This document shows positions 1,514 to 13,166 of a DNA stretch of 64,000 bases, piece after piece. A program made the translations under genes and the position numbers. Positions within the stretch are counted from its first letter, which is position 1, and each line of letters begins with the position of its first letter. Origin of the DNA: Gilvimarinus algae (GTDB lineage: Bacteria > Pseudomonadota > Gammaproteobacteria > Pseudomonadales > Cellvibrionaceae); NCBI RefSeq assembly GCF_030518215.1, contig NZ_JAULRT010000062.1:62001-126000 (forward strand), given 5' to 3'. Under the pieces are notes generated by a model. It had not been told where the DNA came from, did no database searches, and saw nothing but the letters and a program-made list of their open reading frames with translations.

Positions 1514-2176
1514 TTAAGAGTTAACTTCCAGTTTGTTGACAACTTTGTCCACGTCGCCGCGTTTGGTAACTATGGCTTCCGCCAGTTTACGCTGAGCGTC
1601 TGTTTCCACTGTGCCGCTCAAGGTGACTTCATCGTTGTAAGTATCAACGTCAATGGCGATGCCGTTGACATTGGATGAGGCCAATAACTCGGTTTTGATG
1701 GCAGCGGTAGTCGAAATGTCGCGCATGTATTGCGAAAACCCGCGGCCCTCATCCTCTTGCGCCATTTCATCCGTATCAGCTTTGACGGTCAGCTGGTTGT
1801 CGACCTCGTCAATGCCTTCAATGCCCAGGGCAACGTTCTGTGCCAGCTCTTTATCGATATCGCTGCCGACTTCACCTTTTAAGGTGGCAACGTCATCGTC
1901 AACGCTGATGTCAATTTCAAACGGATTGAGGTGCTCGTTGAGTACCAATGCCGTTTCGAGCTTGCCTTCTACCCAGCCATCGCGGAAAGCGTCTTTACTG
2001 TCTTCCCATGTCTGCTCACTGTCCTGTTTGAATTCGGCCCAATACTCCTCGGCGTTTTGCTTGTCGGAGTAGGCGCTCTGCGAATTGGCACCCACAGCGG
2101 TGGAAATGGAAAAGGCCGTTACAAGAGCGATGGATGTCACAGGAAAAATGACCTGCTGGATGCTTTTGCGTTTCAT
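1514..2176 (-). CDS. Periplasmic protein with two BON domains (OsmY-like)
   Basis: 220 residues. The N-terminus is a typical Sec signal (KRK then a hydrophobic stretch ending near residue 29 at V-G-A). Two BON domains follow, about residues 69-130 and 155-218, each with the pattern V-x-L-x-G-x-V and an alternating helix/strand layout. BON proteins such as OsmY are stress-induced periplasmic chaperone-like factors. The start at 2176 is set by an AGGAG site six bases upstream and by the signal peptide. A strong sigma-54-type promoter lies upstream at 2237-2252, and the AI-2E gene diverges from the same region. Confidence 0.88.
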   Translation of the reverse strand: MKRKSIQQVIFPVTSIALVTAFSISTAVGANSQSAYSDKQNAEEYWAEFKQDSEQTWEDSKDAFRDGWVEGKLETALVLNEHLNPFEIDISVDDDVATLKGEVGSDIDKELAQNVALGIEGIDEVDNQLTVKADTDEMAQEDEGRGFSQYMRDISTTAAIKTELLASSNVNGIAIDVDTYNDEVTLSGTVETDAQRKLAEAIVTKRGDVDKVVNKLEVNS

Positions 2177-2236: not shown

Positions 2237-2252
2237 TGCGCAAAGCGTGCCA
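2237..2252 (-). promoter_or_regulatory. Predicted sigma-54 promoter of the BON gene
   Basis: On the minus strand the sequence is TGGCACGCTTTGCGCA: exact TGGCACG at -24, four spacer bases and GC at -12. The predicted RNA start is near 2226, leaving a leader of about 50 bases with the AGGAG site inside. Spacing and orientation both fit. The assignment is inferred from the motif alone. Confidence 0.65.
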
Positions 2253-2255
2253 ATC

Positions 2256-2273
2256 TGGCAAGCCCAGTTGCCA
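2256..2273. promoter_or_regulatory. Inverted repeat TGGCAA-N6-TTGCCA in divergent promoter region
   Basis: A perfect 6-6-6 inverted repeat lies between the two opposed sigma-54-type promoters of the BON and AI-2E genes, four bases from the BON -24 element. It could bind an enhancer protein or a repressor. Its closeness to the -24 box is unusual for an activator site. Confidence 0.4.
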
Positions 2274-2391
2274 AGCGGGATGAGCGAATTTTTACAGCGT
2301 GAATTGTGAAAAATGTGCAGATTTTTTTGTAAGTAAGTCCGCTTCTTAGGCGCTGTTGAGGGAAAAGAGCACCGAGCGCACACTGAGCGGC

Positions 2392-2407
2392 TGGTACGAT
2401 TATCGCT
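2392..2407 (+). promoter_or_regulatory. Predicted sigma-54 promoter of the AI-2E family gene
   Basis: TGGTACGATTATCGCT matches the -24/-12 consensus with the invariant GG and GC at the right 10-base spacing; deviations are T for C at position 4 and C for T in the -12 box. The RNA start would be near 2418. This favours translation from the ATG at 2445 over the one at 2424. Confidence 0.55.
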
Positions 2408-2444
2408 AGAGGAAGCCATCTGAATGCCACCACTGGGAAAAACA

Positions 2445-3539
2445 ATGAACACACAGATTGCGGTTGATCAATTTCATCGGACCCTGAGTAAACCCGCGGC
2501 CTTTTCGTTAAAGGTGTTAGCGGTGCTCGCGGTGCTCTACACCTTGTACTTTTCTCAGACTTTAATGATGCCTGTGTGCGTGGCGGGTTTCATTGCGCTG
2601 TTTTCCAGCCCTATCGTCAGGGGGTTGCAAGTACTAAAGGTCCCCAAGCCCGTGGGCGCCATTATTGTCATCGTCGCGCTAATGGCCGCCATTACTTACG
2701 TCTTTGGGCTCTTGGTTGAGCCAGCAACGCGCTGGCTGCAGGTGGTGCCGACGGTAATGGAGAGGATGAGCTCACAAATGGGGGAGGTCGCTGAGCCCTT
2801 AGACGCCCTCAAGCGAGGGCTGGGCTCAAGTGCCAGTGGTGGTGGGTCCGAACTAGAGGCAGCGGTGAACTCCACCTTTCAAAGTGTGGTGTCAGTGCTT
2901 GCCGAAACCACGGCCATGTTCACTATTCAGGTAGGCGCCATTGTCGTCATTACTTATTTTTTCTTGGTGTTTGGTGACGAACTGATGCGCAACGTGGTCC
3001 GTGCCCAGCAGTCCTTTGCCGATAAGAAAACCACCGTAGTGATGTTTCAGGCCGTACAAAACGATATATCGCGCTACGTTGTGGTGATTTCGCTGATCAA
3101 TGTCGGGCTTGGCGTCTGTACCGCAGGTGTCATGGCGCTTCTTGGGGTTGACGATGCGCTGTTGTGGGGGGCACTGGCCACCATTTTGAATTTTGCGCCT
3201 TATGTTGGCCCGATGATTCTCGCTGTGATTCTCACCGGGGTGGGCTTTATTGAGTTCTACCATATTGGTGAAATCCTGCTGGTGCCCGGCGCCTTCTTGG
3301 TACTCAATTTTATTGAGTGTCAGTTTGTCACACCGACGTTGCTCGGTCAGCGGTTTAACATGAATCCGTTATTAGTGGTGCTGTGGATGTTCGCCTGGGG
3401 CTGGCTGTGGGGCGCTGTGGGGATGCTGATCGCCATTCCCCTGCTGGTGTGCTTCCGTATTCTCGCAACGCATCTGGATCTCGTAGGCGGCTGGGTGAAA
3501 GTCTTGAACGGCGGCTCGACTCAGGCCGGCTCTGTGTAA
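2445..3539 (+). CDS. AI-2E family transporter (PerM/YhhT-like permease)
   Basis: 364 residues with about seven or eight membrane segments: paired helices near the N-terminus, a soluble stretch around residues 100-150 and a helical cluster to the C-terminus. The central part carries the family pattern (N-F-x-P-Y-x-G-P near residue 255, then L-L-G-x-R-x-x-x-x-P-L). Members export small solutes or ions; the family name does not prove AI-2 transport. An alternative ATG at 2424 has a GAGG-type site ten bases upstream, but the predicted sigma-54 start near 2418 would cut that site off. The gene diverges from the BON gene. Confidence 0.85.
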   Translation: MNTQIAVDQFHRTLSKPAAFSLKVLAVLAVLYTLYFSQTLMMPVCVAGFIALFSSPIVRGLQVLKVPKPVGAIIVIVALMAAITYVFGLLVEPATRWLQVVPTVMERMSSQMGEVAEPLDALKRGLGSSASGGGSELEAAVNSTFQSVVSVLAETTAMFTIQVGAIVVITYFFLVFGDELMRNVVRAQQSFADKKTTVVMFQAVQNDISRYVVVISLINVGLGVCTAGVMALLGVDDALLWGALATILNFAPYVGPMILAVILTGVGFIEFYHIGEILLVPGAFLVLNFIECQFVTPTLLGQRFNMNPLLVVLWMFAWGWLWGAVGMLIAIPLLVCFRILATHLDLVGGWVKVLNGGSTQAGSV

Positions 3540-3630
3540 AAACGGTTGCAGAATTGAACAACTTGCAAGGTAAGGTCGGTTTTTCGGCCAAATAATGGCT
3601 TAAAAAGGGCAGAAAACGGGGATTTTTAGT

Positions 3631-3646
3631 TGGCACGGCTTTTGAG
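3631..3646 (+). promoter_or_regulatory. Predicted sigma-54 promoter of the DUF1328/YqjD/YqjE operon
   Basis: TGGCACGGCTTTTGAG has an exact TGGCACG -24 element. The -12 element is TTGA instead of TTGC, so the last invariant base is off. The predicted RNA start near 3656 gives a leader of about 27 bases that includes the AAGGAG ribosome site. Confidence 0.5.
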
Positions 3647-3682
3647 TGTACTTAGTTGGGTAATCACAGAAGGAGTATTGAA

Positions 3683-3844
3683 ATGTTAGGTTATGCGATT
3701 TTGTTTTTTATCATTGCGCTTATTGCTGCTGTTTTCGGTTTTGGTGGAATTGCCGGTGCGGCAACAGGTATAGCTCAGATTCTGTTTGTTGTGTTTCTGG
3801 TGCTGTTTATCCTGTCGCTTATTTTCGGCAAGCGCAGACCCTAG
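3683..3844 (+). CDS. DUF1328 (YtjA-type) small membrane protein
   Basis: 53 residues: M-L-G-Y-A start, two hydrophobic helices (about 3-26 and 30-48) separated by a glycine/alanine turn, and a basic tail GKRRP. This matches DUF1328 in length and pattern. Molecular function is not known; members are commonly found beside stress genes. The ATG at 3683 has an AAGGAG site seven bases upstream; a longer reading to 3656 adds only non-hydrophobic residues and loses that site. It is first in a run of four small membrane genes. Confidence 0.85.
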
Positions 3845-3898
3845 ATCTTACGAAAGCTTGTAACGATTTTTAATGCAAAGCAATCAATGAGGTGAAAC

Positions 3899-4198
3899 AT
3901 GGCTAGTCAAACAGCAAGTAAAACCAATTCAGGAAAAGCGCAGGAAGCGTCAGTAAGCGATGCTTTGGATCAAATCAAAGACGCCTCTGCAAGCGTTTAT
4001 GAGGCGGTAGGCTCCATCGGCTCGGCTGGTGCCGCCAACGCCCGCCTGAAAGTGGAACAGGGTCGCGAGCAAGCCCGCGAGTACAGTGCCAAGGCTGAGA
4101 ATGTGTTGCGCGAGCGCCCGCTGGTAACCGTCGGTGTGGCTTTCGCCGCGGGTTGGTTGGTGTCGCGTCTGATCAGTGGGTCGCGCAAGGCCGATTAA
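3899..4198 (+). CDS. ElaB/YqjD/DUF883-like tail-anchored protein
   Basis: 99 residues. The first 75 are polar and helical with heptad-like spacing (Ala, Gln, Glu, Lys, Arg rich). A conserved E-R-P-L-x-x-V-G-V-A-F-A-A-G-W-L-x-S-R-L membrane tail follows at about 72-94, the hallmark of ElaB/YqjD/YgaM proteins. These anchor to the inner membrane, bind ribosomes and are induced in stationary phase in E. coli. An ATGAGGTGAAAC leader gives a GAGG ribosome site. It lies 54 bases after the DUF1328 gene and 2 bases before the YqjE gene, so co-transcription is likely. Confidence 0.85.
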   Translation: MASQTASKTNSGKAQEASVSDALDQIKDASASVYEAVGSIGSAGAANARLKVEQGREQAREYSAKAENVLRERPLVTVGVAFAAGWLVSRLISGSRKAD

Positions 4199-4200
4199 TC

Positions 4201-4674
4201 ATGGACCCTTCAGCAGATCCAGCAGCCGGTCGTCACGAAGCCCCCCCCGGGGCCCGTGATGACGCTAACGCGGCGGGAGTCAGCGATGACTTCAGCCGCG
4301 CTGTTGCGCTCGGAGAAAAAAGCATCGCGCTGTTAAAGTCCTCTGCCGAACTGTTTCGGCTTGAGGCGTTGCTGGCCATTCAGAGCACTCCGCGTTTGGT
4401 GGCTGCCTGGTTGTTGACCCTGCCGGCGATGTTACTGTGCTGGTTGAGCTTTTCCGCCATGGTGGCTTGGGCGTGCTACGAGTGGGCAGGTGTTCCTCTG
4501 GTGGGCTTTGTGGCGTTATTTGCCTTGCAGCTCGTGTTTTTGCTGGCCCTGAAGTGGATGCTGCGTCGACACAGCCATAACATGTCATTTCCGGCAACCC
4601 GAGCAAGTATTGATGCAGCCGTGCAGGAGTTTAAGCGTGAGCCTGAAAAAGAAAATCAGCGTCCAGCAGCGTAA
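4201..4674 (+). CDS. YqjE-like (putative holin superfamily III) membrane protein
   Basis: 157 residues. A polar N-terminus with proline and alanine runs is followed by an amphipathic helix, then two membrane segments at about residues 71-93 and 97-119 and a basic, polar tail. This is the layout of the YqjE/actinobacterial holin-X family (PF07332), which pairs with YqjD in many proteobacteria. It starts two bases after the YqjD-like stop. No lysis genes lie nearby, so a phage role is unlikely; the conserved pairing points to an envelope stress role. Confidence 0.8.
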   Translation: MDPSADPAAGRHEAPPGARDDANAAGVSDDFSRAVALGEKSIALLKSSAELFRLEALLAIQSTPRLVAAWLLTLPAMLLCWLSFSAMVAWACYEWAGVPLVGFVALFALQLVFLLALKWMLRRHSHNMSFPATRASIDAAVQEFKREPEKENQRPAA

Positions 4675-4867
4675 GCTGGCCATTCAGGGGGCGGAGTTTA
4701 AAGCCTTGCTGGACGATGGCGAGACCTCGGTTAACCGTCATGCGGTTGCTATGGGAATCCTTACCAGTGCCTTTGCAACGGGCTTTCTCTTCCAGCGATT
4801 GAGCCCCGGCGGCAGACTTCCCGTGTCTGTTCGGCGTATCGCCCTGACCAGCCTTTTGCCCCTGTAA
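4637..4867 (+). CDS. Small YqjK-like protein, last gene of the YqjD/YqjE cluster
   Basis: 76 residues from a GTG at 4637, which has a CAGGAG site eight bases upstream and overlaps the yqjE-like gene by 38 bases. The N-terminal half is basic and helical (SLKKKI, QQRKLAIQGAEFKALL), followed by a weakly hydrophobic stretch at about 37-52. Position, length and charge resemble YqjK, the third gene of the E. coli yqjDEK run, but I see no diagnostic motif. No function can be assigned. Confidence 0.6.
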   Translation: MSLKKKISVQQRKLAIQGAEFKALLDDGETSVNRHAVAMGILTSAFATGFLFQRLSPGGRLPVSVRRIALTSLLPL

Positions 4868-5174
4868 ATACGGACGAGGGGTAGTGCGTCAGGCGGTTTA
4901 TTTTTAACAATTTTTACCTTGCCGATTCCGATAGCAACTAATCAACCGCGCTTAGCCCCCGAGTCATTGTCGACACGGGTAGACAGGTTGAGCCTTTTCA
5001 ACAAGGCGGGTCGTTGGTCCAGCCTATTGATATGGGGTTACCTATACAAACGGCTCGATACGGAGAGTAATCTGTTGTCGACGGGTTGCAGGCGATAGTC
5101 AAGCCCAGGCGCTGCGTGTAGGCAATAGGAATGAGAGCGTACCTGCCGCAAGGGTGAACCCCTTGCGGAGGTGG
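4868..5174. other. Intergenic region, no gene seen
   Basis: About 300 bases with no convincing reading frame. Its right end holds the inverted repeat at 5146-5168. Otherwise I see only short AT-rich stretches near 4900-4920. Confidence 0.5.
5146..5168 (-). terminator. Hairpin after the 57-residue ORF (possible terminator)
   Basis: CCGCAAGGG-TGAAC-CCCTTGCGG is a perfect nine-base-pair stem with a five-base loop, starting seven bases beyond the stop codon of the minus-strand gene at 5175. No U run follows, so termination may be weak or Rho-assisted. Confidence 0.4.
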
Positions 5175-5348
5175 TTACTTCAGGCCGACCAGGCTTTTAA
5201 TTCGGTTGGCTAAATGGCCCCAAAAAGACTGGCTGGAGGCGGGCGTTGCCAAGCTGCGACGCGATAGATTTTCAGCCTCGGATGAGTCGACAACGCTCAG
5301 TCCGGCGAGGTAGGTGAGGGTATTGCTACTGGGTGAGTTGCGGTCCAT
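5175..5348 (-). CDS. Novel 57-residue protein behind a consensus sigma-54 promoter
   Basis: ATG at 5348 with a GGAG site seven bases upstream, stop at 5175. The product is MDRNSPSSNTLTYLAGLSVV followed by a Ser/Glu/Arg-rich middle and a C-terminal helix ending K-S-L-V-G-L-K. There is no signal peptide or membrane segment. I do not recognise a family. Three things support it as real: a perfect -24/-12 promoter 37 bases upstream of the start codon, a good ribosome site, and a hairpin after the stop. It diverges from the sigma-54 response regulator, the usual place for a target of that regulator. Confidence 0.55.
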   Translation of the reverse strand: MDRNSPSSNTLTYLAGLSVVDSSEAENLSRRSLATPASSQSFWGHLANRIKSLVGLK

Positions 5349-5384
5349 TGTACTGCTCCGATGGTTGGTTTAGACTCGACACCC

Positions 5385-5400
5385 AGCAAGGGGTGTGCCA
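5385..5400 (-). promoter_or_regulatory. Consensus sigma-54 promoter of the 57-residue ORF
   Basis: On the minus strand TGGCACACCCCTTGCT fits TGGCAC(R)-N4-TTGCW with no mismatch. The predicted RNA start near 5374 gives a leader of about 26 bases with the GGAG site. This is the best sigma-54 match in the window. Confidence 0.7.
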
Positions 5401-5460
5401 GATCAAAAACCGCCCAGTACCGCGGGGTTTCAAGCTCAGGAGTCCGGTTAAGCGCAGAAT

Positions 5461-5478
5461 TTACACGCAAGGGTGTAA
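5461..5478. promoter_or_regulatory. Inverted repeat TTACAC-N6-GTGTAA, possible activator site
   Basis: A perfect 6-6-6 inverted repeat lies 61 bases upstream of the -24 element at 5395-5400 and 106 bases before the response-regulator start. Distance and symmetry suit a dimeric sigma-54 activator site that could also give autoregulation. The link to the regulator is inference. Confidence 0.45.
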
Positions 5479-5583
5479 TAACGGAGCGCAAACACCGGTA
5501 AACTGCAGGTCGGCTTGCCGAGTTAGCAGCTCCTGGAGTCAAGCTTCCCTAAAACCCGTTTTAATTGAGAAAGAGGATAGCAG

Positions 5584-6900
5584 GTGGCAAAGATTCTTCT
5601 GGTGGACGATGACCAGTCTTTTCTGGAGGCGACCAGCGAACTGCTGGGGATGTTGGGGCACAGCGTGAGTACTGCCGAGTCAGTTGCCCAGGCGCGAGAA
5701 GTTGCCAGTGGGCGCGTATTTGATCATGTTATCCTCGATTTGATTCTTCCCGATGGCAGTGGCCTTCATGTGCTGGATGAGCTCGAAGCTCGCGCTGCGA
5801 CCAATGTGACGCTGGTAACGGGTCACCCATCGGTTAAGTCGATTGTCAAAGACCTTTACGGCCCTAACATTTCCTATCTGATTAAGCCCATCGACCTGCA
5901 GCAGCTGCAATCGCTGTTGGATCGGCCGGTAGCGGTGGAGCCCGTCGAGAACCTTCCGGGGCTGCACTTCGGCCATCTCGTGGGTGAGTCGGCGCCCATG
6001 CAAAAGCTCTATGAGATGATTGATCGTGTGGCCGGTACCCAGGCTAACGTGATGCTCATGGGTGAAAGCGGGGTGGGTAAAGAAGTGGTGGCCGCCGCGA
6101 TTCACCAGGCCAGCAAGCCCGCCGGGGCCTTTGTGCCGGCCAACTGCGGCGCCTTTGCCCGCGACCTGATCGCTAGCGAGCTGTTTGGCCATGAAAAAGG
6201 CGCGTTTACCGGAGCGGCCCAGCGCAAAGCCGGCGTGTTCGAACTGGCTAACAATGGCACCCTGTTTCTCGACGAAATCACCGAGATGCCCATTGACCAG
6301 CAACCCAACCTGCTGCGGGTATTGGAAACACAGAAAGTAACTCGCCTGGGGGCGACATCGGCCATTGACGTCAACTGCCGGGTTGTTTCGGCCACCAACC
6401 GCACTGAGACGCAGTTGGCTGAGCAAGGTTGTCTGCGGGAGGATCTGTACTTTCGTTTAGCCGTCTTCCCGATCCATATCCCGCCGCTGCGTCAGCGCAG
6501 CGAAGATATACCGCTGTTGGTCGATTACTTTCTGGCTGATTTCAACCGCCAGTACAAATCAGAAGTGGGCGTGGACGCCGCCACTTTGGATAGACTGACT
6601 TCCTACGACTGGCCAGGCAATGTGCGCGAGCTGCGTCACGCCGTTCACCGCGCTTTTATCATGGCGGATCGCAATACACGACTGCTGGTCTTGCCAGACG
6701 ACTTGTCTTCCCCTTTCTCTAAAACCGGTGAAACTCGTTCTGCCGGAATTTCTGTGGGCAAGACGGTAGAAGACGTGGAGCGCGAACTGATTGAAACCAC
6801 ACTTGAGCACTTGGACGGCGACAAAAAGCGCGCGGCAGAGATGCTCGGTATCAGCTTGAAAACCCTTTACAACCGACTCAATAGCTATGCAGAGCAATAG
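5584..6900 (+). CDS. Sigma-54-dependent response regulator (NtrC family)
   Basis: 438 residues in three domains. The receiver (about 1-112) has acidic D8-D10, phospho-acceptor D52 and K101. The AAA+ domain (about 130-360) has Walker A GESGVGKE at 160-167, the sigma-54-contacting GAFTGA loop at 206-211 and Walker B GTLFLDEI at 225-232. A Fis-type helix-turn-helix closes the protein (about 395-436). It is therefore a complete activator of sigma-54 RNA polymerase. The start is a GTG behind an AGAGGA site. It leads an operon with the HisKA-like protein, the CHASE3 kinase and receivers, and predicted sigma-54 promoters surround it. Confidence 0.93.
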   Translation: MAKILLVDDDQSFLEATSELLGMLGHSVSTAESVAQAREVASGRVFDHVILDLILPDGSGLHVLDELEARAATNVTLVTGHPSVKSIVKDLYGPNISYLIKPIDLQQLQSLLDRPVAVEPVENLPGLHFGHLVGESAPMQKLYEMIDRVAGTQANVMLMGESGVGKEVVAAAIHQASKPAGAFVPANCGAFARDLIASELFGHEKGAFTGAAQRKAGVFELANNGTLFLDEITEMPIDQQPNLLRVLETQKVTRLGATSAIDVNCRVVSATNRTETQLAEQGCLREDLYFRLAVFPIHIPPLRQRSEDIPLLVDYFLADFNRQYKSEVGVDAATLDRLTSYDWPGNVRELRHAVHRAFIMADRNTRLLVLPDDLSSPFSKTGETRSAGISVGKTVEDVERELIETTLEHLDGDKKRAAEMLGISLKTLYNRLNSYAEQ

Positions 6901-6912
6901 CAGGTGAACTCT

Positions 6913-7140
6913 ATGGATGAAGACCGGTTGAGAAAATTGCTGCACGATGCCAGAAATCCACTCAACAATATTTCGGTCAACGCTGAACTTGGCAAGCTAA
7001 CGCTGCAGACTCAGGGCGATGTGGATAAAGCCGTCGCTGTCTTCGATAAAATTCTTGGAGAATGTCGCCGCTGCAGTGAGACCTTGGAGTCCCTCTCTGA
7101 GGCCATTGCCGAGGAGCAGCAAAAAGGGAGTGCGCCGTGA
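6913..7140 (+). CDS. Stand-alone HisKA-like mini-protein (no ATPase domain)
   Basis: 75 residues that look like only the dimerisation/phospho-acceptor part of a histidine kinase: an H-box HDARNPLNN with H11, then a helix and a turn, then a second helix rich in Glu and Ser. No HATPase follows. The ATG at 6913 has AGGTGA nine bases upstream, although a GTG at 6904 is also in frame. It starts 12 bases after the response regulator and overlaps the kinase gene by 4 bases (GTGA). It could act as a phosphotransfer or decoy partner. That role is inferred. Confidence 0.6.
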   Translation: MDEDRLRKLLHDARNPLNNISVNAELGKLTLQTQGDVDKAVAVFDKILGECRRCSETLESLSEAIAEEQQKGSAP

Positions 7141-8636
7141 GCGCCTTGCGCAAGTTGAGTAAAACAGGTGTGCCAAGCCGGCCGTGGATACTGGTCTTGT
7201 TGGCTGTGGTTGTCTTTTTTTCTATCAGCATGGCGGCAGCCTATCGCTCCATTGGCTTGATGCATGAGAATAACCAGAGCACCAATACCACTTTGGAGGT
7301 CATGAGTCTTATTAAGGACTTGCGCACCGCCTTGCTCAAAGCTGAAAGTGGCCAACGCGGTTATTTACTCACCTCAGATGGCCAGTATTTGGAGCCCTAT
7401 CACCAATCTCTGTCGAGCATTGATCAACTGTTAACCGCGCTGACGAGCAGTTCTACCGAACTGGACATTCAGCGCGAGCGCTTTGCCACTTTAGAAAGCC
7501 TGATTCGGCAAAAAGTCGACGAAATGCAGGACACTGTCAGGATGATGCACGAGGATCGTCGTGCTGAGGCCGTCAATGTCGTGCGCACGGACGTAGGCGT
7601 TGCACTGATGCGCGACATCAGTGAGCTGATAGCGCAAATGGAAAATGACGAAAAAATGCTCCTCTACAAGAGCCGCTTGCGTGCTCAGGAGGATCGTCAG
7701 TTTATCCTCAATGCGCTGCTTGCCACCAATACTCTAGGCCTTATACTGTCTCTCGCCGTGTACATTGCGGTGTTTCGTCATACGCGCCGCGAGTCGCGCC
7801 TGTACGAAACCATCGAACGAGCCAACAACGAGCTGGAAGAGAAGGTGCAGGAGCGGACTCTGGCACTGCAACAGTACTCCGAGGAGTTGCAGCGCAGTAA
7901 CCGCGAGCTGGAAGAGTTTGCCTTTGTTGCCTCCCACGATTTGCAGGAGCCTCTAAGGAAAATTCGCGCTTTCGGTGACCGGTTGCAGCAAAAATACAGC
8001 AGTGAACTGGGCGAGCGCGGCGCCGACTATGTTGATCGTATGCATGCCGCCTCCGAGCGGATGTCGCATCTGATCGACGACCTGTTGAGTTTTTCCCGCG
8101 TCACCACCCAGCAAAAACCGTTTGAAAAAGTGGATTTGAACGCCGTGGTTGCCAAGGTGCGAGAGGACCTTGAGTACGCGATTGAAGATGCCGGTGCCGA
8201 GGTTACGGTGGAGCCTCTGCCTGAGATTGATGCGGATGCCTCACAACTGGGGCAGGTGTTTATGAATTTGATTGGCAACAGCATCAAGTTTCGCCGTGAA
8301 GGCGTTCCCCCGCGCATCAGTGTGCGCGCGGAGGTGGGTGAGCACTGCGCCGTGGATGGGGATTACACCCCTGAAGACTGCGAATGGTGCTGTTTGTATT
8401 TTAAAGACAATGGTATTGGTTTTGAGGCTCAGTATGTTGAAAAAGTCTTTAATCTTTTTCAGCGGCTGCACGGCAGGGATGAGTACGCCGGCACGGGGAT
8501 TGGTCTCGCCCTTTGCCGAAAAATCGTTGAGCGTCACGGGGGGAAGATTGAGGCTCACAGTGTTCCGGGGGAAGGGTCTGAGTTTGTGATCAGATTACCG
8601 CTACAACAATCGAGTATGGACTCCTTTGAGGAATAA
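7137..8636 (+). CDS. CHASE3-domain sensor histidine kinase
   Basis: 499 residues. Membrane helix at about 18-38, extracytoplasmic CHASE3-like helical sensor (about 45-190, with the E-S-G-Q-R-G-Y-L-L-T signature near residue 72), second helix at about 195-218, a coiled coil, HisKA with H267 in SHDLQEPLRK, and HATPase_c with N-box NLIGNSIKFR and GTGIGLALC. The SHDLQEPL H-box is the phytochrome-like type that normally pairs with small Rcp1 receivers, and one follows four bases downstream. The GTG start overlaps the previous stop. The signal sensed is unknown. Confidence 0.92.
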   Translation: MSALRKLSKTGVPSRPWILVLLAVVVFFSISMAAAYRSIGLMHENNQSTNTTLEVMSLIKDLRTALLKAESGQRGYLLTSDGQYLEPYHQSLSSIDQLLTALTSSSTELDIQRERFATLESLIRQKVDEMQDTVRMMHEDRRAEAVNVVRTDVGVALMRDISELIAQMENDEKMLLYKSRLRAQEDRQFILNALLATNTLGLILSLAVYIAVFRHTRRESRLYETIERANNELEEKVQERTLALQQYSEELQRSNRELEEFAFVASHDLQEPLRKIRAFGDRLQQKYSSELGERGADYVDRMHAASERMSHLIDDLLSFSRVTTQQKPFEKVDLNAVVAKVREDLEYAIEDAGAEVTVEPLPEIDADASQLGQVFMNLIGNSIKFRREGVPPRISVRAEVGEHCAVDGDYTPEDCEWCCLYFKDNGIGFEAQYVEKVFNLFQRLHGRDEYAGTGIGLALCRKIVERHGGKIEAHSVPGEGSEFVIRLPLQQSSMDSFEE

Positions 8637-8639
8637 ATA

Positions 8640-9083
8640 ATGAATGCGGAAAAGAAAACACTGATTATATTAATGGCTGACGACGATGCCGATGATCGTA
8701 TGTTGGCCGAAGAGGCGTTGATAGAAAGCCGGGTGCTGAACGAGCTGCATTTTGCTGAAGACGGCGTGCAGTTGATGGAGTATCTGCGCGGTGACGGTGT
8801 GTATGCCGACCGTGAAAAGTATCCGTTGCCGGGTTTGATCTTGCTGGATCTCAACATGCCGAAAATGGACGGCCGCGAGGCTCTGGCGGAGCTTAAAAAA
8901 GATCCGGTGCTAAAACGTATACCGGTGGTGATTTTAACCACCTCCAAGGCCGAGGAGGATATGCTTCGAGGCTATGATCTGGGTGCGGCATCTTACATTA
9001 CTAAGCCTGTAACGTTTGATGTGCTTGTGGAATTGATGCGCACTCTGGGGAAGTATTGGGTTGAGTTTGTCGAACTACCATAG
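8640..9083 (+). CDS. Rcp1-like single-domain response regulator
   Basis: 147 residues, receiver only. Acidic pocket D14-D16, phospho-acceptor D70 in LLDLNMPKMDG, a T-T-S switch region and a conserved K in ITKPVTF. The insertion between strands 2 and 3 (L-R-G-D-G-V-Y-A-D) is typical of Rcp1-type partners of phytochrome-like kinases. No DNA-binding domain is present, so it must pass or hold phosphate. It starts four bases after the CHASE3 kinase stop, which argues for a dedicated pair. Confidence 0.9.
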   Translation: MNAEKKTLIILMADDDADDRMLAEEALIESRVLNELHFAEDGVQLMEYLRGDGVYADREKYPLPGLILLDLNMPKMDGREALAELKKDPVLKRIPVVILTTSKAEEDMLRGYDLGAASYITKPVTFDVLVELMRTLGKYWVEFVELP

Positions 9084-9096
9084 ACGATCACAGACG

Positions 9097-11022
9097 ATGC
9101 AAGACGTAAAGCTGCTGATTGTCGACGACGACGAGGACGATTTTCTCCTCGCGCGCGACTTGCTGGATGAAATCACGCGCGGCCCCTATGTGTTGGACTG
9201 GGCGTCTTCATACGAGCAAGGCCGGCAGCAGCTTGCGACCAATGCCCATGACTTGTGTCTTATGGACTATAAGCTCGGCGCGCGCGACGGCATTGAGCTT
9301 TTGCGCGAGGCGCCGGAGCTCGGTTATACCGGCCCGATCATTTTGCTCACGGGTATGCACCAGGGCGAAGTGGATATGCAGGCCCTGCAGGCCGGTGCAG
9401 TGGACTATTTGGTCAAGGCCAGCCTTACCGCCGAGCAGCTTGCCAGGTCTATTCGCTATGCACTGGCGCGCCGTGAAATGGAGCGAGAAAGGGTAGAGCG
9501 ACTCAGGGCTGAGGCCGAGAACCGCTCTAAAAGCGAATTTCTCGCCCATTTAAGTCATGAGCTGCGCACACCGCTGTCAGCCATTCTCGGCTTTACCGAA
9601 TTGATGATTAACACCAATAAAGACGTGGAATCCCTTGCGCATTTGCGGGTGGTACATCGCAACGGTAAGCACCTGCTCGGCCTGCTCAACGACATTCTCG
9701 ACTTGTCAAAAATTGAGGCGGGTAAGCTGGAGCTGGAAATTCAGCCGGTGTTTTTATCGTCTTTCTTGACGGACGTTTATTTTCTGATGCACGGCGCCGC
9801 CATTGATAAAAGCCTGAGGCTGCGTCTGGATGCCCCCGAACCCTTGCCGCGCAAGATCTTTACCGACCCCACCCGCCTGCGTCAGGTGTTGTTGAACCTG
9901 TTGGGCAATGCCATCAAGTTTACTGAACGCGGAGAAGTGAGCCTCAAGGTGGAAGAGGTGTCGGTCGGTGGACGTCCTCAGCTGCAGTTTACGGTGAGCG
10001 ATTCCGGTATCGGCATTCGCCAGGAGTCTCTGGAGACAATTTTCCAGCCCTTTGTGCAATCAAGTGATTCCTACTCGGAGCCACGCGCCGGCACGGGGCT
10101 CGGACTCGCCATCAGCCGCCAGTTGGTCAACCGCCTGGGCGGGGATATTGCCGTACACAGCGAACCAGGCAAGGGCAGCCAGTTCTGTTTTTCGATTGAC
10201 GTGGGGGATTTGGCCGAGGTCGAGCGCCGGGTGTTCTCCATGGAATTTGACGTGAACAGAACTGCGAAAGCCACCGTGCCCCAGCTGAACGGGCGGGTAC
10301 TGGTGGTGGACGACCTGCGCGATATTCGTATGCTGATCGGGCATTTCGTCCAACAGGCGGGCCTCGAGGTTTCCTACGCCCGCAACGGCGAGGAGGCGCT
10401 GCGCCTACTCACCATGGATAACCCTGAGCAAAAACCGTTTGATATCGTGCTCATGGATATTCATATGCCCGTGATGGACGGACACGAGGCGGCCCAGGCT
10501 CTGCGGGCCCAAGGCTTTGCCCAGCCGCTTATCGCCCTCACGGCTGCGCACATGAAAGGCGATATGAACAAGTGCCTCGAATCGGGTTTTACCGCTTATC
10601 TGAGCAAGCCTGTGGACCAGAATCGGTTGCATGTCGCTCTGGCCCGCTATTTGACTGACAGCGCCGGTGACAGTGAGGAGGCCGGGGCAGCCAAGAGCAT
10701 TCTGGTAGTGGATGATGATCCCGATGCGCTTAATGCGACCGCCAGCTTGTTGGAAATGCTGAATTGGCAAGTCACCACCGCTGCCGATGGTCAGTCTGCC
10801 TTGCACACTATTGAGCAGGCTCAGCCGTCGCTGGTGCTGACGGACCTTAACTTGCCGGACATCAATGGTTATGCGCTAGCCGAGCAATGCCACACACTGA
10901 GCCCGGCCACGCGGGTTGTGGTGCTCAGTGGCGAGCCTTTGGATGGCGAGCGTGCCTTTGCGGCGGGTATTGAATCCGGGTTGCTCAAGCCCGTGTCTCT
11001 CAGCGATTTACAGGCACTTTGA
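9097..11022 (+). CDS. Hybrid histidine kinase REC-HisKA-HATPase-REC-REC
   Basis: 641 residues, no membrane segment. REC1 (about 4-120, D57), coiled coil, HisKA with H154 in LSHELRTPLS, HATPase_c (about 260-370, with GTGLGLAIS), REC2 (about 396-510, D454 in MDIHMPVMDG) and REC3 (about 528-640, D583 in TDLNLPDING). Three receivers around one cytoplasmic kinase suggest signal integration. It probably takes phosphate or control from the upstream kinase through REC1. The ATG at 9097 is preferred; a TTG at 9061 would overlap the Rcp1-like gene by 23 bases. Last gene of the signalling operon. Confidence 0.9.
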   Translation: MQDVKLLIVDDDEDDFLLARDLLDEITRGPYVLDWASSYEQGRQQLATNAHDLCLMDYKLGARDGIELLREAPELGYTGPIILLTGMHQGEVDMQALQAGAVDYLVKASLTAEQLARSIRYALARREMERERVERLRAEAENRSKSEFLAHLSHELRTPLSAILGFTELMINTNKDVESLAHLRVVHRNGKHLLGLLNDILDLSKIEAGKLELEIQPVFLSSFLTDVYFLMHGAAIDKSLRLRLDAPEPLPRKIFTDPTRLRQVLLNLLGNAIKFTERGEVSLKVEEVSVGGRPQLQFTVSDSGIGIRQESLETIFQPFVQSSDSYSEPRAGTGLGLAISRQLVNRLGGDIAVHSEPGKGSQFCFSIDVGDLAEVERRVFSMEFDVNRTAKATVPQLNGRVLVVDDLRDIRMLIGHFVQQAGLEVSYARNGEEALRLLTMDNPEQKPFDIVLMDIHMPVMDGHEAAQALRAQGFAQPLIALTAAHMKGDMNKCLESGFTAYLSKPVDQNRLHVALARYLTDSAGDSEEAGAAKSILVVDDDPDALNATASLLEMLNWQVTTAADGQSALHTIEQAQPSLVLTDLNLPDINGYALAEQCHTLSPATRVVVLSGEPLDGERAFAAGIESGLLKPVSLSDLQAL

Positions 11023-11206
11023 GGGCCGCTGCCGCGCTGTGTAAGTTTTGCATCTGTTTCTACGCGCATTGTAACTTTCACTGCCAGGCGCGGGGCTGGC
11101 GCTCTCGATGTTCTTGCCGGTGCAAAGTGCGTGAAAATAAAATTATCCAGCTAAATCAATGGCTTAAATTTATGTTTCTGGGCTTTCTGTCGCTCCTTCA
11201 TAAAAC

Positions 11207-11222
11207 TGGCACACTTTACGCT
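11207..11222 (+). promoter_or_regulatory. Predicted sigma-54 promoter of the acidic lipoprotein gene
   Basis: TGGCACACTTTACGCT has an exact TGGCAC and correctly spaced GC; the -12 box is ACGC instead of TTGC. A TATAGT hexamer at 11222-11227 overlaps it and could be a sigma-70 -10 box, but no good -35 box is seen. The leader would be about 78 bases. Confidence 0.5.
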
Positions 11223-11310: not shown

Positions 11311-11517
11311 ATGGACATTTTGAAGCGTATTGCACTGGTAATGATGTTTGCACTGCCGTTGATGGCGTGTGAAAACAACGATGGAGCCGCCGAGGAGTTC
11401 GGTGAGAAAGTCGACAATGCGGTGGATAATACCCGCGATGCCATGGACGATGCGGCCGACGAAGTATCGGACGGCGTTGAAGATGCCTGTGAGGAAGTGT
11501 CTGACGAGAACTGCTAA
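11311..11517 (+). CDS. Small acidic lipoprotein
   Basis: 68 residues. A lipoprotein signal (MDILKRIALVMMFALP) ends in the lipobox L-M-A-C with C20. The mature part is strongly acidic (Asp and Glu make up over a third) with repeats of the type VDNAVDNTRDAMDDAADEV, which predict one amphipathic helix, and ends in two more Cys. This resembles entericidin-sized or YqjD-like stress lipoproteins, but no family is recognised. A GGTAAGGAG ribosome site precedes it and a strong terminator follows. The sigma-54-type promoter suggests control by the upstream cassette. Confidence 0.75.
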   Translation: MDILKRIALVMMFALPLMACENNDGAAEEFGEKVDNAVDNTRDAMDDAADEVSDGVEDACEEVSDENC

Positions 11518-11696: not shown

Positions 11697-13166
11697 ATGC
11701 TCAAAGGAATCACCTGGATCGGGTTACTACTGCTGCTTGTGTCGCTGGGCGCGACGTCTTCATTGCAAGCCGCTCCCGTGGAAGTCAACTTCGGCGACAG
11801 TTCGTCTTCTTCGAGCGCTGCCTCTGAGTGCGAGGGAGAGTCGTGCGAAGCGGCCTCATCGAGCGAGGCGTCGAGCTTGCCAGTGGGCCTGGATGTCAGC
11901 CAGGTCCTTGATGTGGCTGAGGTAACTCAAAGCTGGGAGGCGCATGTGAACGCCATGCTCTCGCGTTTTGGTTTTGATGCCAGCTGGTCTGCCAAAGCCT
12001 TTGTCAGCGCCATTGCCGTGGTGATTTCTCTGACATTGATCGTTCTAATCAAGCTGGCGACGCGCCGCCTTAAACGGCGACTGGCTAACGCCAAAACCCG
12101 CTTGCGCATCAGCCAGAAGCGTCTCGGTGTTTATCATCGACTGGCCAATTTTATCCTGATCACTTTTGTTCTGATTTTTACCTTGATTTCACTCTTTGTT
12201 GTCTGGTGGGGCGTGGAGAGCGACGCGGGCTTTGTTTCCACGGCTTCAGGATGGCTGGTGAGCTTTTTGAGCTTTACCATCGCACTGATGCTCACAGTGG
12301 CCATCTTTGAGTTGATTACCGCAGCGCTCGAGCGCTATTTCTACCGCCTCTCGCAAAGAGGCAGTCCCCGAATCAATACACTTTTGCCCATTGCCCGCAA
12401 CATCCTCTATGGCACCTTGCTGGTGATTCTGGGTATCACGGTGATTTCAGAACTGGGCGTGGATGTAACCCCTTTGCTGGCCGGCGCCGGTGTGATCGGT
12501 GTGGCCGTTGGCTTTGGCGCCCAGGCATTGATCAAAGATGTACTCAACGGCTTTATTGTGATCGTCGAGGATCTGATTCAGGTGGGCGATGTGGCTGCCG
12601 TGGGCGGCAAAACCGGTTTGGTGGAAAAAATTACCCTGCGCAAAGTGCAGTTGCGGGATCTGGATGGTCGCGTTTACACCGTTCCCTTCAGTGAAATTTC
12701 GGTGGTCGAGAACTACACCAAAGAGTTCAGCTACTACATGTTTGATGTCGGTGTGGCTTATCGCGAAGACCCCGATGAAGTCATCGCTGTACTGCAGGAG
12801 ATCGGCGAGCAAATGCAGGCGGATGATGAATATGCCGATCTGATCCTCGAGCCCATAGAAGTGCTGGGCGTCGATAAGTTTGCCGACAGTGCCGTAGTGA
12901 TTAAAGCGCGGATCAAAACCCGTCCGATCAAACAGTGGCTGGTCGGGCGTGAATTCAACCGTCGGATGAAGTATGTCTTCGATGAGCGCAATATTGAGAT
13001 TCCGTTTCCTCATCAAACGCTGTACTTCGGCGAAGACAAGGACGGCAGTGCACCACCGGCACGGTTGGTGGTGGATAAGCCTGTGGATGAGGCGGCGAAT
13101 GACACAGATAAAGCGAAGGACGATCAAGCGCCGGCCGAACAACAAGAGGGTGATAAGCCGGATTGA
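11697..13166 (+). CDS. MscS-family mechanosensitive channel with Ser-rich N-terminus
   Basis: 489 residues. A signal-like first helix is followed by a Ser/Glu/Cys-rich periplasmic stretch (about 38-60). Membrane helices lie near 105-125, 155-178, 190-215 and 240-260, then comes the MscS pore and beta domain with a glycine/alanine-rich pore helix (G-A-G-V-I-G-V-A-V-G-F-G-A-Q near 262-276). The C-terminal tail is long, acidic and probably disordered (from about residue 455). Such channels release solutes on osmotic downshift, which fits the BON/ferritin/YqjD neighbourhood. The ATG at 11697 follows GAGGATTGGGATA. Confidence 0.92.
   Translation: MLKGITWIGLLLLLVSLGATSSLQAAPVEVNFGDSSSSSSAASECEGESCEAASSSEASSLPVGLDVSQVLDVAEVTQSWEAHVNAMLSRFGFDASWSAKAFVSAIAVVISLTLIVLIKLATRRLKRRLANAKTRLRISQKRLGVYHRLANFILITFVLIFTLISLFVVWWGVESDAGFVSTASGWLVSFLSFTIALMLTVAIFELITAALERYFYRLSQRGSPRINTLLPIARNILYGTLLVILGITVISELGVDVTPLLAGAGVIGVAVGFGAQALIKDVLNGFIVIVEDLIQVGDVAAVGGKTGLVEKITLRKVQLRDLDGRVYTVPFSEISVVENYTKEFSYYMFDVGVAYREDPDEVIAVLQEIGEQMQADDEYADLILEPIEVLGVDKFADSAVVIKARIKTRPIKQWLVGREFNRRMKYVFDERNIEIPFPHQTLYFGEDKDGSAPPARLVVDKPVDEAANDTDKAKDDQAPAEQQEGDKPD

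Follow-up and report, generated by a model that had tools for sequence, protein, structure and literature searches.

In proteobacteria, control of general-stress gene sets is usually attributed to RpoS or EcfG. Regulators of the NtrC family, among them NtrC, AtoC and ZraR, share a receiver domain, an AAA+ domain with the GAFTGA motif and a Fis-type helix-turn-helix (HTH), together with enhancer palindromes situated above -24/-12 promoters. The Pak-SdrG-PhyT-PhyR system of Sphingomonas melonis is an alphaproteobacterial general stress relay (PMC5898713). The locus analyzed here is from Gilvimarinus algae (assembly GCF_030518215.1, contig NZ_JAULRT010000062.1, positions 62,001 to 126,000 of the forward strand). 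This whole stretch of 64,000 nucleotides is termed the window, and coordinates refer to it. The locus carries a gene for an NtrC-type regulator and five -24/-12 sites in front of target genes. With a probability of about 0.8, it represents the core of a sigma-54-dependent stress regulon under this regulator, with a probable relay and with further promoters elsewhere in the genome. A general-stress or an envelope regulon is the best reading of its type.

The five sites are intergenic, correctly oriented and aimed at the genes to which a preliminary description of this DNA had assigned them; their positions were right to within a base, and four indeed have an exact TGGCAC. The sequence TTGGCACGCTTTGCGCA (2237..2253, minus strand) precedes a gene for a BON-domain protein, and CTGGTACGATTATCGCT (2391..2407, plus strand), which has the variant TGGTAC, precedes an AI-2E family permease gene; both sites are kept in 8/8 Gilvimarinus orthologues. 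The DUF1328 operon follows TTGGCACGGCTTTTGAG (3630..3646, plus), found in all eight Gilvimarinus and in 21 of 23 orthologues from other genera of the family, the Cellvibrionaceae. In front of an open reading frame (ORF) of 57 residues is CTGGCACACCCCTTGCT (5385..5401, minus), the only near-perfect consensus (score 19.0), kept in 5/5 orthologues. The fifth site, CTGGCACACTTTACGCT (11206..11222, plus), belongs to an acidic lipoprotein gene and is present in 8/8 Gilvimarinus and in 22/23 orthologues from other family genera. Gaps between site and start codon are 36 to 88 bases when the AI-2E start is taken as 2445. Scored with a sigma-54 weight matrix over the whole 64 kb, the five take ranks 1, 2, 4, 6 and 8. 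At the DUF1328 promoter, TTGA replaces the expected TTGC and thus deviates at the -12 GC, and the same TTGA is seen in the other seven Gilvimarinus loci.

The preliminary description had also argued that TGGCAC-N7-GC should match only a few times per 64 kb by chance, and not always in front of genes. This did not stand: there are 7 in the window against 4.7 expected, a count of 7 is reached in 21 of 100 shuffles, and only 3 of the 7 matches belong to the five sites. As the count argument is weak, the case rests on conservation and on the enhancer instead. A promoter was scored as present when a site of at least 11 was found within 200 bp upstream of the start, and other genes of the same loci served as controls. 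The site is present at all 37 target starts in eight Gilvimarinus genomes (BON 8, AI-2E 8, DUF1328 8, lipoprotein 8 and the 57-residue ORF 5), compared with 1 of 69 controls. In other Cellvibrionaceae genera it precedes 69 of 89 targets and 3 of 175 control genes; the figures for Alteromonadales and others are 11/30 and 1/57. Column-permuted matrices give 0.3-1% in the same test. Sites still precede the target genes in loci with a different gene order, and promoter-specific spellings (TGGTA[C/T] at AI-2E, TTGA at DUF1328) are kept while the flanks diverge. This is strong comparative evidence that the five sites represent sigma-54-type promoters.

These comparisons cover regulator orthologues detected at E 1e-100 or better in 39 of 144 genomes of the family, the genome of the window included, and in 13 of 32 genera. 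Regulator loci comprise 26 from a contig search and 38 regions fetched from family genomes. Nine loci that duplicate refetched regions (L009-L013, L016, L018, L023 and L026) and two that are too distant (L033 and L034) were set aside in the conservation and two-part scans.

A palindrome, TTTTGnAAnnnTTnCAAAA, was found de novo upstream of the sites in 57 training regions, with a log-likelihood of 254.8 compared with 32.0 for one shuffled set. The regions stem from the 8 Gilvimarinus loci and from 7 of 12 fetched loci of genus g9, and orthologues were included only with a site of at least 10; the 57 are not independent because divergent promoters share sequence. In the window, a single palindrome, TTGTGAAAAATGTGCAGAT (2304..2322), is common to the divergent BON and AI-2E promoters, AATTGAACAACTTGCAAGG (3552..3570) is associated with the DUF1328 promoter and CTGTGTAAGTTTTGCATCT (11037..11055) with the lipoprotein promoter. 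A weak enhancer-like palindrome at 5450..5468 (score 8.6-9.4) belongs to the 57-residue ORF. The palindromes are centred 60-162 bp above the promoters, and on strong comparative evidence they represent a candidate common activator site.

Palindrome and promoter were also scanned for jointly. When the window was left out of the training of the enhancer model, the scan of the 64 kb gave five two-part matches and no more, and these are the five sites. Twenty shuffled windows yielded 6 such matches in total; the best of them scored 26.1, compared with 26.6 for the weakest of the five sites. In 54 regulator-flanking sequences (965 kb, the window part included) there are 148 two-part matches, compared with 1 in the reversed sequence. 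Genes for BON, AI-2E, DUF1328, YqjD-like, lipoprotein or 57-residue proteins follow 110 of these, and DUF2383 genes, assigned by Pfam, follow another 4.

The regulator gene (5584..6900, plus) encodes, by Pfam and motifs, a receiver, an AAA+ sigma-54 interaction domain with GAFTGA and a Fis-type HTH. Pfam Response_reg, Sigma54_activat and HTH_8 are all above cut-off, and the phospho-acceptor Asp, Walker A and B and GAFTGA are in place. Among 54 orthologue matches, GAFTGA is present in 51, and KTLYN, in the recognition region at the end of the HTH, is present in 52, the remaining two being cut short. The earlier picture, in which a sigma-54 regulon surrounds an NtrC-type activator and targets are found to either side of it, is upheld in that the arrangement is kept in relatives with a common enhancer. 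Three details of that picture had to be revised. The regulator is not an orphan, as it heads a conserved cluster with a stand-alone HisKA-like hairpin (termed mini-DHp here, for the dimerization and histidine phosphotransfer domain), a CHASE3 kinase, a receiver and a hybrid kinase; the signalling partners are thus four and not three; and the regulon is not self-contained, in that a promoter and enhancer of the same kind also precede CsbD, hemerythrin and DUF2383 genes in other parts of the genome.

The link between regulator and targets is well supported by their co-occurrence. Of the 105 family genomes without a regulator match, 15 were searched for CsbD and 19 for DUF1328. CsbD is found in none of the 15, compared with 10 of 18 searched among the 31 regulator-bearing genomes outside Gilvimarinus and with 8/8 Gilvimarinus (Fisher p 9e-6, not corrected for relatedness). 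DUF1328 occurs in one of the 19, a genome that is 79% complete and whose DUF1328 gene does not have this promoter. The pattern recurs within genus g9. Among the 12 genomes with the regulator, local tblastn places DUF1328 in the regulator locus of 11; among those without it, whole-genome searches show DUF1328 in 0 of 6 genomes of at least 92% completeness, and two less complete ones have 0 and 1. From this co-occurrence we infer that the regulator binds the palindrome. In three loci from Rheinheimera and a related metagenome-assembled genome (L028, L029 and L030), relatives of the regulator match only residues 128-437 and may have a differing input domain. No mini-DHp was found in these loci; their DUF1328 gene retains a sigma-54-like site at -68.

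The genome has one copy of rpoN (PF04552, 236 bits). The sigma-54 activator domain is matched 13 times, and nine of these matches, that of the neighbouring regulator included, exceed 200 bits. The pattern TGGYAYN5TTGCW occurs 22 times genome-wide against 6 for a control pattern, an excess that is expected where sigma-54 is in use. The pattern TGGCAYN7GC was rejected as a guide, since its 552 matches (318 for the control) are mostly background.

Outside the locus, 800 kb of the genome contain nine two-part matches, and none when reversed, at a slightly looser enhancer threshold. Among the nine are matches at genes for DUF2383, hemerythrin and CsbD and at a short intergenic unit. Sites of at least 11 are found in Gilvimarinus before 7/7 hemerythrin genes, 5/5 DUF2383 genes, 8/8 CsbD paralogues and 6/8 main CsbD genes, i.e., in 26 of 28 cases, against 2 of 28 same-sized stretches from the opposite end of the locus. 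The CsbD, hemerythrin and DUF2383 families are taken here to be stress proteins. The gene set as a whole (OsmY-like BON, CsbD, YqjD-like, DUF1328, hemerythrin and DUF2383) looks more like a general-stress set, and the "envelope or osmotic stress" of the preliminary description is a possible reading that fits the target families. The DUF2383 gene of this genome sits outside the regulator locus. In four loci of other genera (L083, L091, L019 and L024), DUF2383 genes identified by Pfam are inside the regulator locus, with promoter and palindrome as in this genome. A gene for a 175-residue protein (L109:864-1391, minus) is divergent to the DUF2383 gene on contig C16; the protein has no Pfam match, and its gene shows a weaker sigma-54-like site (10.1) below the palindrome of the DUF2383 gene. 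On the same contig, at L117:5195-5640 (minus), a strong sigma-54 site and a strong palindrome precede a unit of ∼300 bases that ends in a G + C-rich hairpin with a T-run. This unit is possibly a 56-residue ORF or a small RNA; a search of Rfam showed no family near gathering score.

The proposed mechanism is that the regulator becomes phosphorylated and would then bind the palindrome above each promoter, and that its GAFTGA ATPase domain would open sigma-54 RNA polymerase at the five sites and at the CsbD, hemerythrin and DUF2383 promoters elsewhere.

Several observations weigh against this reading. The sigma-54 matrix is approximate, its frequencies being set from the general consensus for such sites; a threshold of 11 was picked after the window had been seen; and the relatives are mutually non-independent. 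The AI-2E site is found in only 9 of 20 cases in other family genera and the BON site in only 1 of 8 cases outside the family, although start-codon inference may account for some of these losses. The enhancer is weak before the 57-residue ORF and was not found there in L059. A model built from the other genus alone recovers 4 of the 5 window sites and loses that of this same ORF, and one shuffled match (25.3) scores about as high as the best of its four. Two-part matches are missing from 5 of the 54 regulator loci, and 34 of the 148 have no target-family gene downstream, what follows being another gene, an unassigned one or no called ORF. Genome-wide, the palindrome is not enriched (73 occurrences against 82 for the control, at most one mismatch), so that the motif alone is no guide. 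Of the nine matches in the 800 kb, five are unverified and some of these are inside ORFs; that sample was also not blind, because the matches in L115, L143 and L145 were already known when the stretches were selected. The sites of the main CsbD genes are degenerate, with 2 of 8 below 11; among CsbD genes of other genera that have the regulator, the site reaches 11 in 7 of 10 and falls short in 3; and 3 of 7 hemerythrin genes have no clear palindrome.

One alternative is that the promoters are sigma-54 dependent and the palindrome is bound by another activator or an accessory factor, the neighbouring regulator controlling something else. The genome has eight other strong sigma-54 activator matches, and another activator is for that reason possible. 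Binding of the palindrome by the regulator is predicted only. A site of at least 11 precedes the regulator's own gene in just 4 of 25 loci, with no Gilvimarinus locus among the four, so that autoregulation is not general. Against such an arrangement, two-part matches cluster at regulator orthologues (148 per 965 kb, compared with 9 per 800 kb elsewhere at the looser enhancer threshold), CsbD and DUF1328 are missing from nearly all searched regulator-less family genomes, DUF1328 also within genus g9, and the KTLYN of the HTH is kept wherever the regulator match is not cut short. Another activator is thus considered improbable. Far more improbable still is that the five sites are chance matches before genes whose real promoters are of the sigma-70, RpoS or envelope sigma-factor type. 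The unremarkable TGGCAC-N7-GC count and the one site without the -12 GC would agree with chance. Comparison already contradicts it, given a site at each of the 37 orthologous promoters and at 1 of 69 controls, promoter-specific spellings that persist amid diverging flanks, and the specificity of the two-part scan. A regulon under the neighbouring NtrC-type regulator remains the preferred explanation.

The four signalling genes follow directly on the regulator. The mini-DHp (6913..7140, plus) consists of 75 residues with His11 and a CxxC motif (Cys51 and Cys54) and has no ATPase domain. It is followed by a CHASE3 histidine kinase identified by Pfam (7137..8636, plus), a single-domain receiver (8640..9083, plus) and a hybrid kinase (9097..11022, plus) with Pfam domains in the order receiver, HisKA, HATPase, receiver, receiver as read from the sequence. 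The five genes from regulator to hybrid kinase were all detected, in the same order, in 42 of 54 sequences. The mini-DHp is below the HisKA cut-off (7.5e-5; 23.1 of 26.9 bits). Its predicted model displays two helices with a predicted local distance difference test score of 89.6, and its best fold match is the HK853 kinase at a probability of 0.99; with an E of 0.23 that match is not decisive, and no fold match reaches E 0.001. A sequence search against solved structures gave six matches, with no kinase or phosphotransferase among them. By inspection, His11 and the first Cys of the CxxC are present in 47/47 mini-DHp orthologues and the full CxxC in 45/47; L019 is not counted, as its match was to the CHASE3 kinase. 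A near-invariant CxxC in the second helix is unexpected for a phosphotransfer hairpin, and a possible function suggested by the conserved cysteines is redox or metal sensing.

A relay is proposed because parts of this kind form the Pak-SdrG-PhyT-PhyR relay, and by analogy the regulator is probably driven through a phosphorelay. The most likely route of phosphate would be from the CHASE3 and hybrid kinases to the single-domain receiver, then to the mini-DHp and finally to the regulator. DHp domains can also act as phosphatases. It is therefore conceivable, and a sizeable minority possibility, that there is direct two-component control without a relay, one kinase phosphorylating the regulator and the mini-DHp serving as inhibitor, phosphatase or insulator. 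Three loci point in this direction (L073, L074 and L014, the last near a contig end), where regulator and mini-DHp remain and the CHASE3 and hybrid kinases are not seen in the locus; so do six other sequences besides L019 in which no mini-DHp was detected next to the regulator. The invariant His and the adjoining stand-alone receiver are by comparison the parts needed for a relay, for which PhyT-SdrG offers a precedent (PMC5898713). The order of the relay, a role for the cysteines and the stress signal are likewise inferred.

Target 1 (1514..2176, minus) has two BON domains (Pfam BON 9e-30, two stretches) and is OsmY-like, albeit below the NCBIfam OsmY cut-off with 73.7 of 174 bits. Target 2, the AI-2E family permease, is at 2445..3539 (plus; Pfam AI-2E_transport 2e-39 for 2424-3539). 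A start at 2445 is more likely than one at 2424, because a Met-Asn-Thr start is common to L057, L058 and L059. The listed start, 2424, would lie just a few bases downstream of the predicted start of transcription. Target 3 is the small DUF1328 protein (3683..3844, plus; Pfam DUF1328 3e-15). Its presumed operon continues with a YqjD-like protein (3899..4198, plus), without a Pfam or NCBIfam match, and a YqjE-like protein (4201..4674, plus), without a Pfam match, both named after the preliminary description. In L073 and L074 a sigma-54 site is found directly before the YqjD-like gene. A small ORF (4637..4867, plus) with no family match overlaps the end of the YqjE-like gene. Target 4, the 57-residue ORF (5175..5348, minus), occurs in 5 of 8 Gilvimarinus and has a conserved N-terminus around TLTYLAGL. 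Target 5 (11311..11517, plus) is a small, acidic lipoprotein-like protein of 68 amino acids, whose lipobox was judged by eye and whose only NCBIfam match is sub-threshold. An MscS-type channel gene (11697-13166) comes after the lipoprotein gene in the window and in Gilvimarinus loci. It has no sigma-54 site of its own in the regulator loci scanned and may be read through from the lipoprotein promoter.

A wider and distinctly tentative reading, more doubtful than not, is that sigma-54, and not RpoS or EcfG, runs a general stress response across Cellvibrionaceae and Alteromonadales. Its targets would be the OsmY-like, CsbD, hemerythrin, DUF2383 and small membrane proteins. The kinases and the single-domain receiver would act on the mini-DHp as a miniature phosphotransferase, and the CxxC of the latter would sense redox state or metal and gate the regulator. 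If true, marine bacteria would have a conserved sigma-54 circuit that represents a third wiring of the general stress response, one with an absolute need for an activated ATPase. The enhancer motif, the regulator and the small putative phosphotransferase are defined well enough for direct testing, and a regulatory context is offered for families of unknown function, i.e., DUF1328, DUF2383 and the 57-residue protein.

No description of such a regulon was found in the open literature, as judged by titles and the beginnings of abstracts, a scope outside which most subscription journals fall. A Vibrio paper (PMC7859628) reportedly contains both "sigma-54" and "DUF2383". A paper on Pseudomonas putida manganese oxidases (PMC11930936) names sigma-54 and osmY and, in the passages concerned, does not match; the system is likewise not described in passages of PMC12316311 and PMC9817140.

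The RpoS regulon of enterobacteria includes osmY and yqjD. DUF1328 and the word "regulon" are both said to occur in a Salmonella RpoS proteome paper (PMC5437024). The gene sets overlap, whereas the promoters here are of the sigma-54 type with an activator site. NtrC, AtoC and ZraR share the architecture of the regulator and differ in their targets, which here are concerned with stress and the envelope and not with nitrogen or carbon; the regulator is below the curated cut-off of every NCBIfam family among the best 25 of 75, the top one being AtoC with 332.9 bits against 714. Spo0B of Bacillus is a DHp-like phosphotransferase inside a relay, from which the mini-DHp appears to be set apart by the lack of a C-terminal domain and the presence of a CxxC. 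With Pak-SdrG-PhyT-PhyR (PMC5898713), the locus has in common kinases, a single-domain receiver and a putative His phosphotransferase upstream of the regulator of a general stress regulon, here a putative one. The output is PhyR/EcfG there and a sigma-54 activator here, and PhyT is membrane-bound, whereas the putative phosphotransferase of this locus is a 75-residue, two-helix protein with a CxxC. Each component is of a known kind. What appears to be new is the combination, sigma-54 control of an OsmY-like/CsbD/YqjD-like/DUF1328/hemerythrin set together with a mini-DHp that carries a CxxC.

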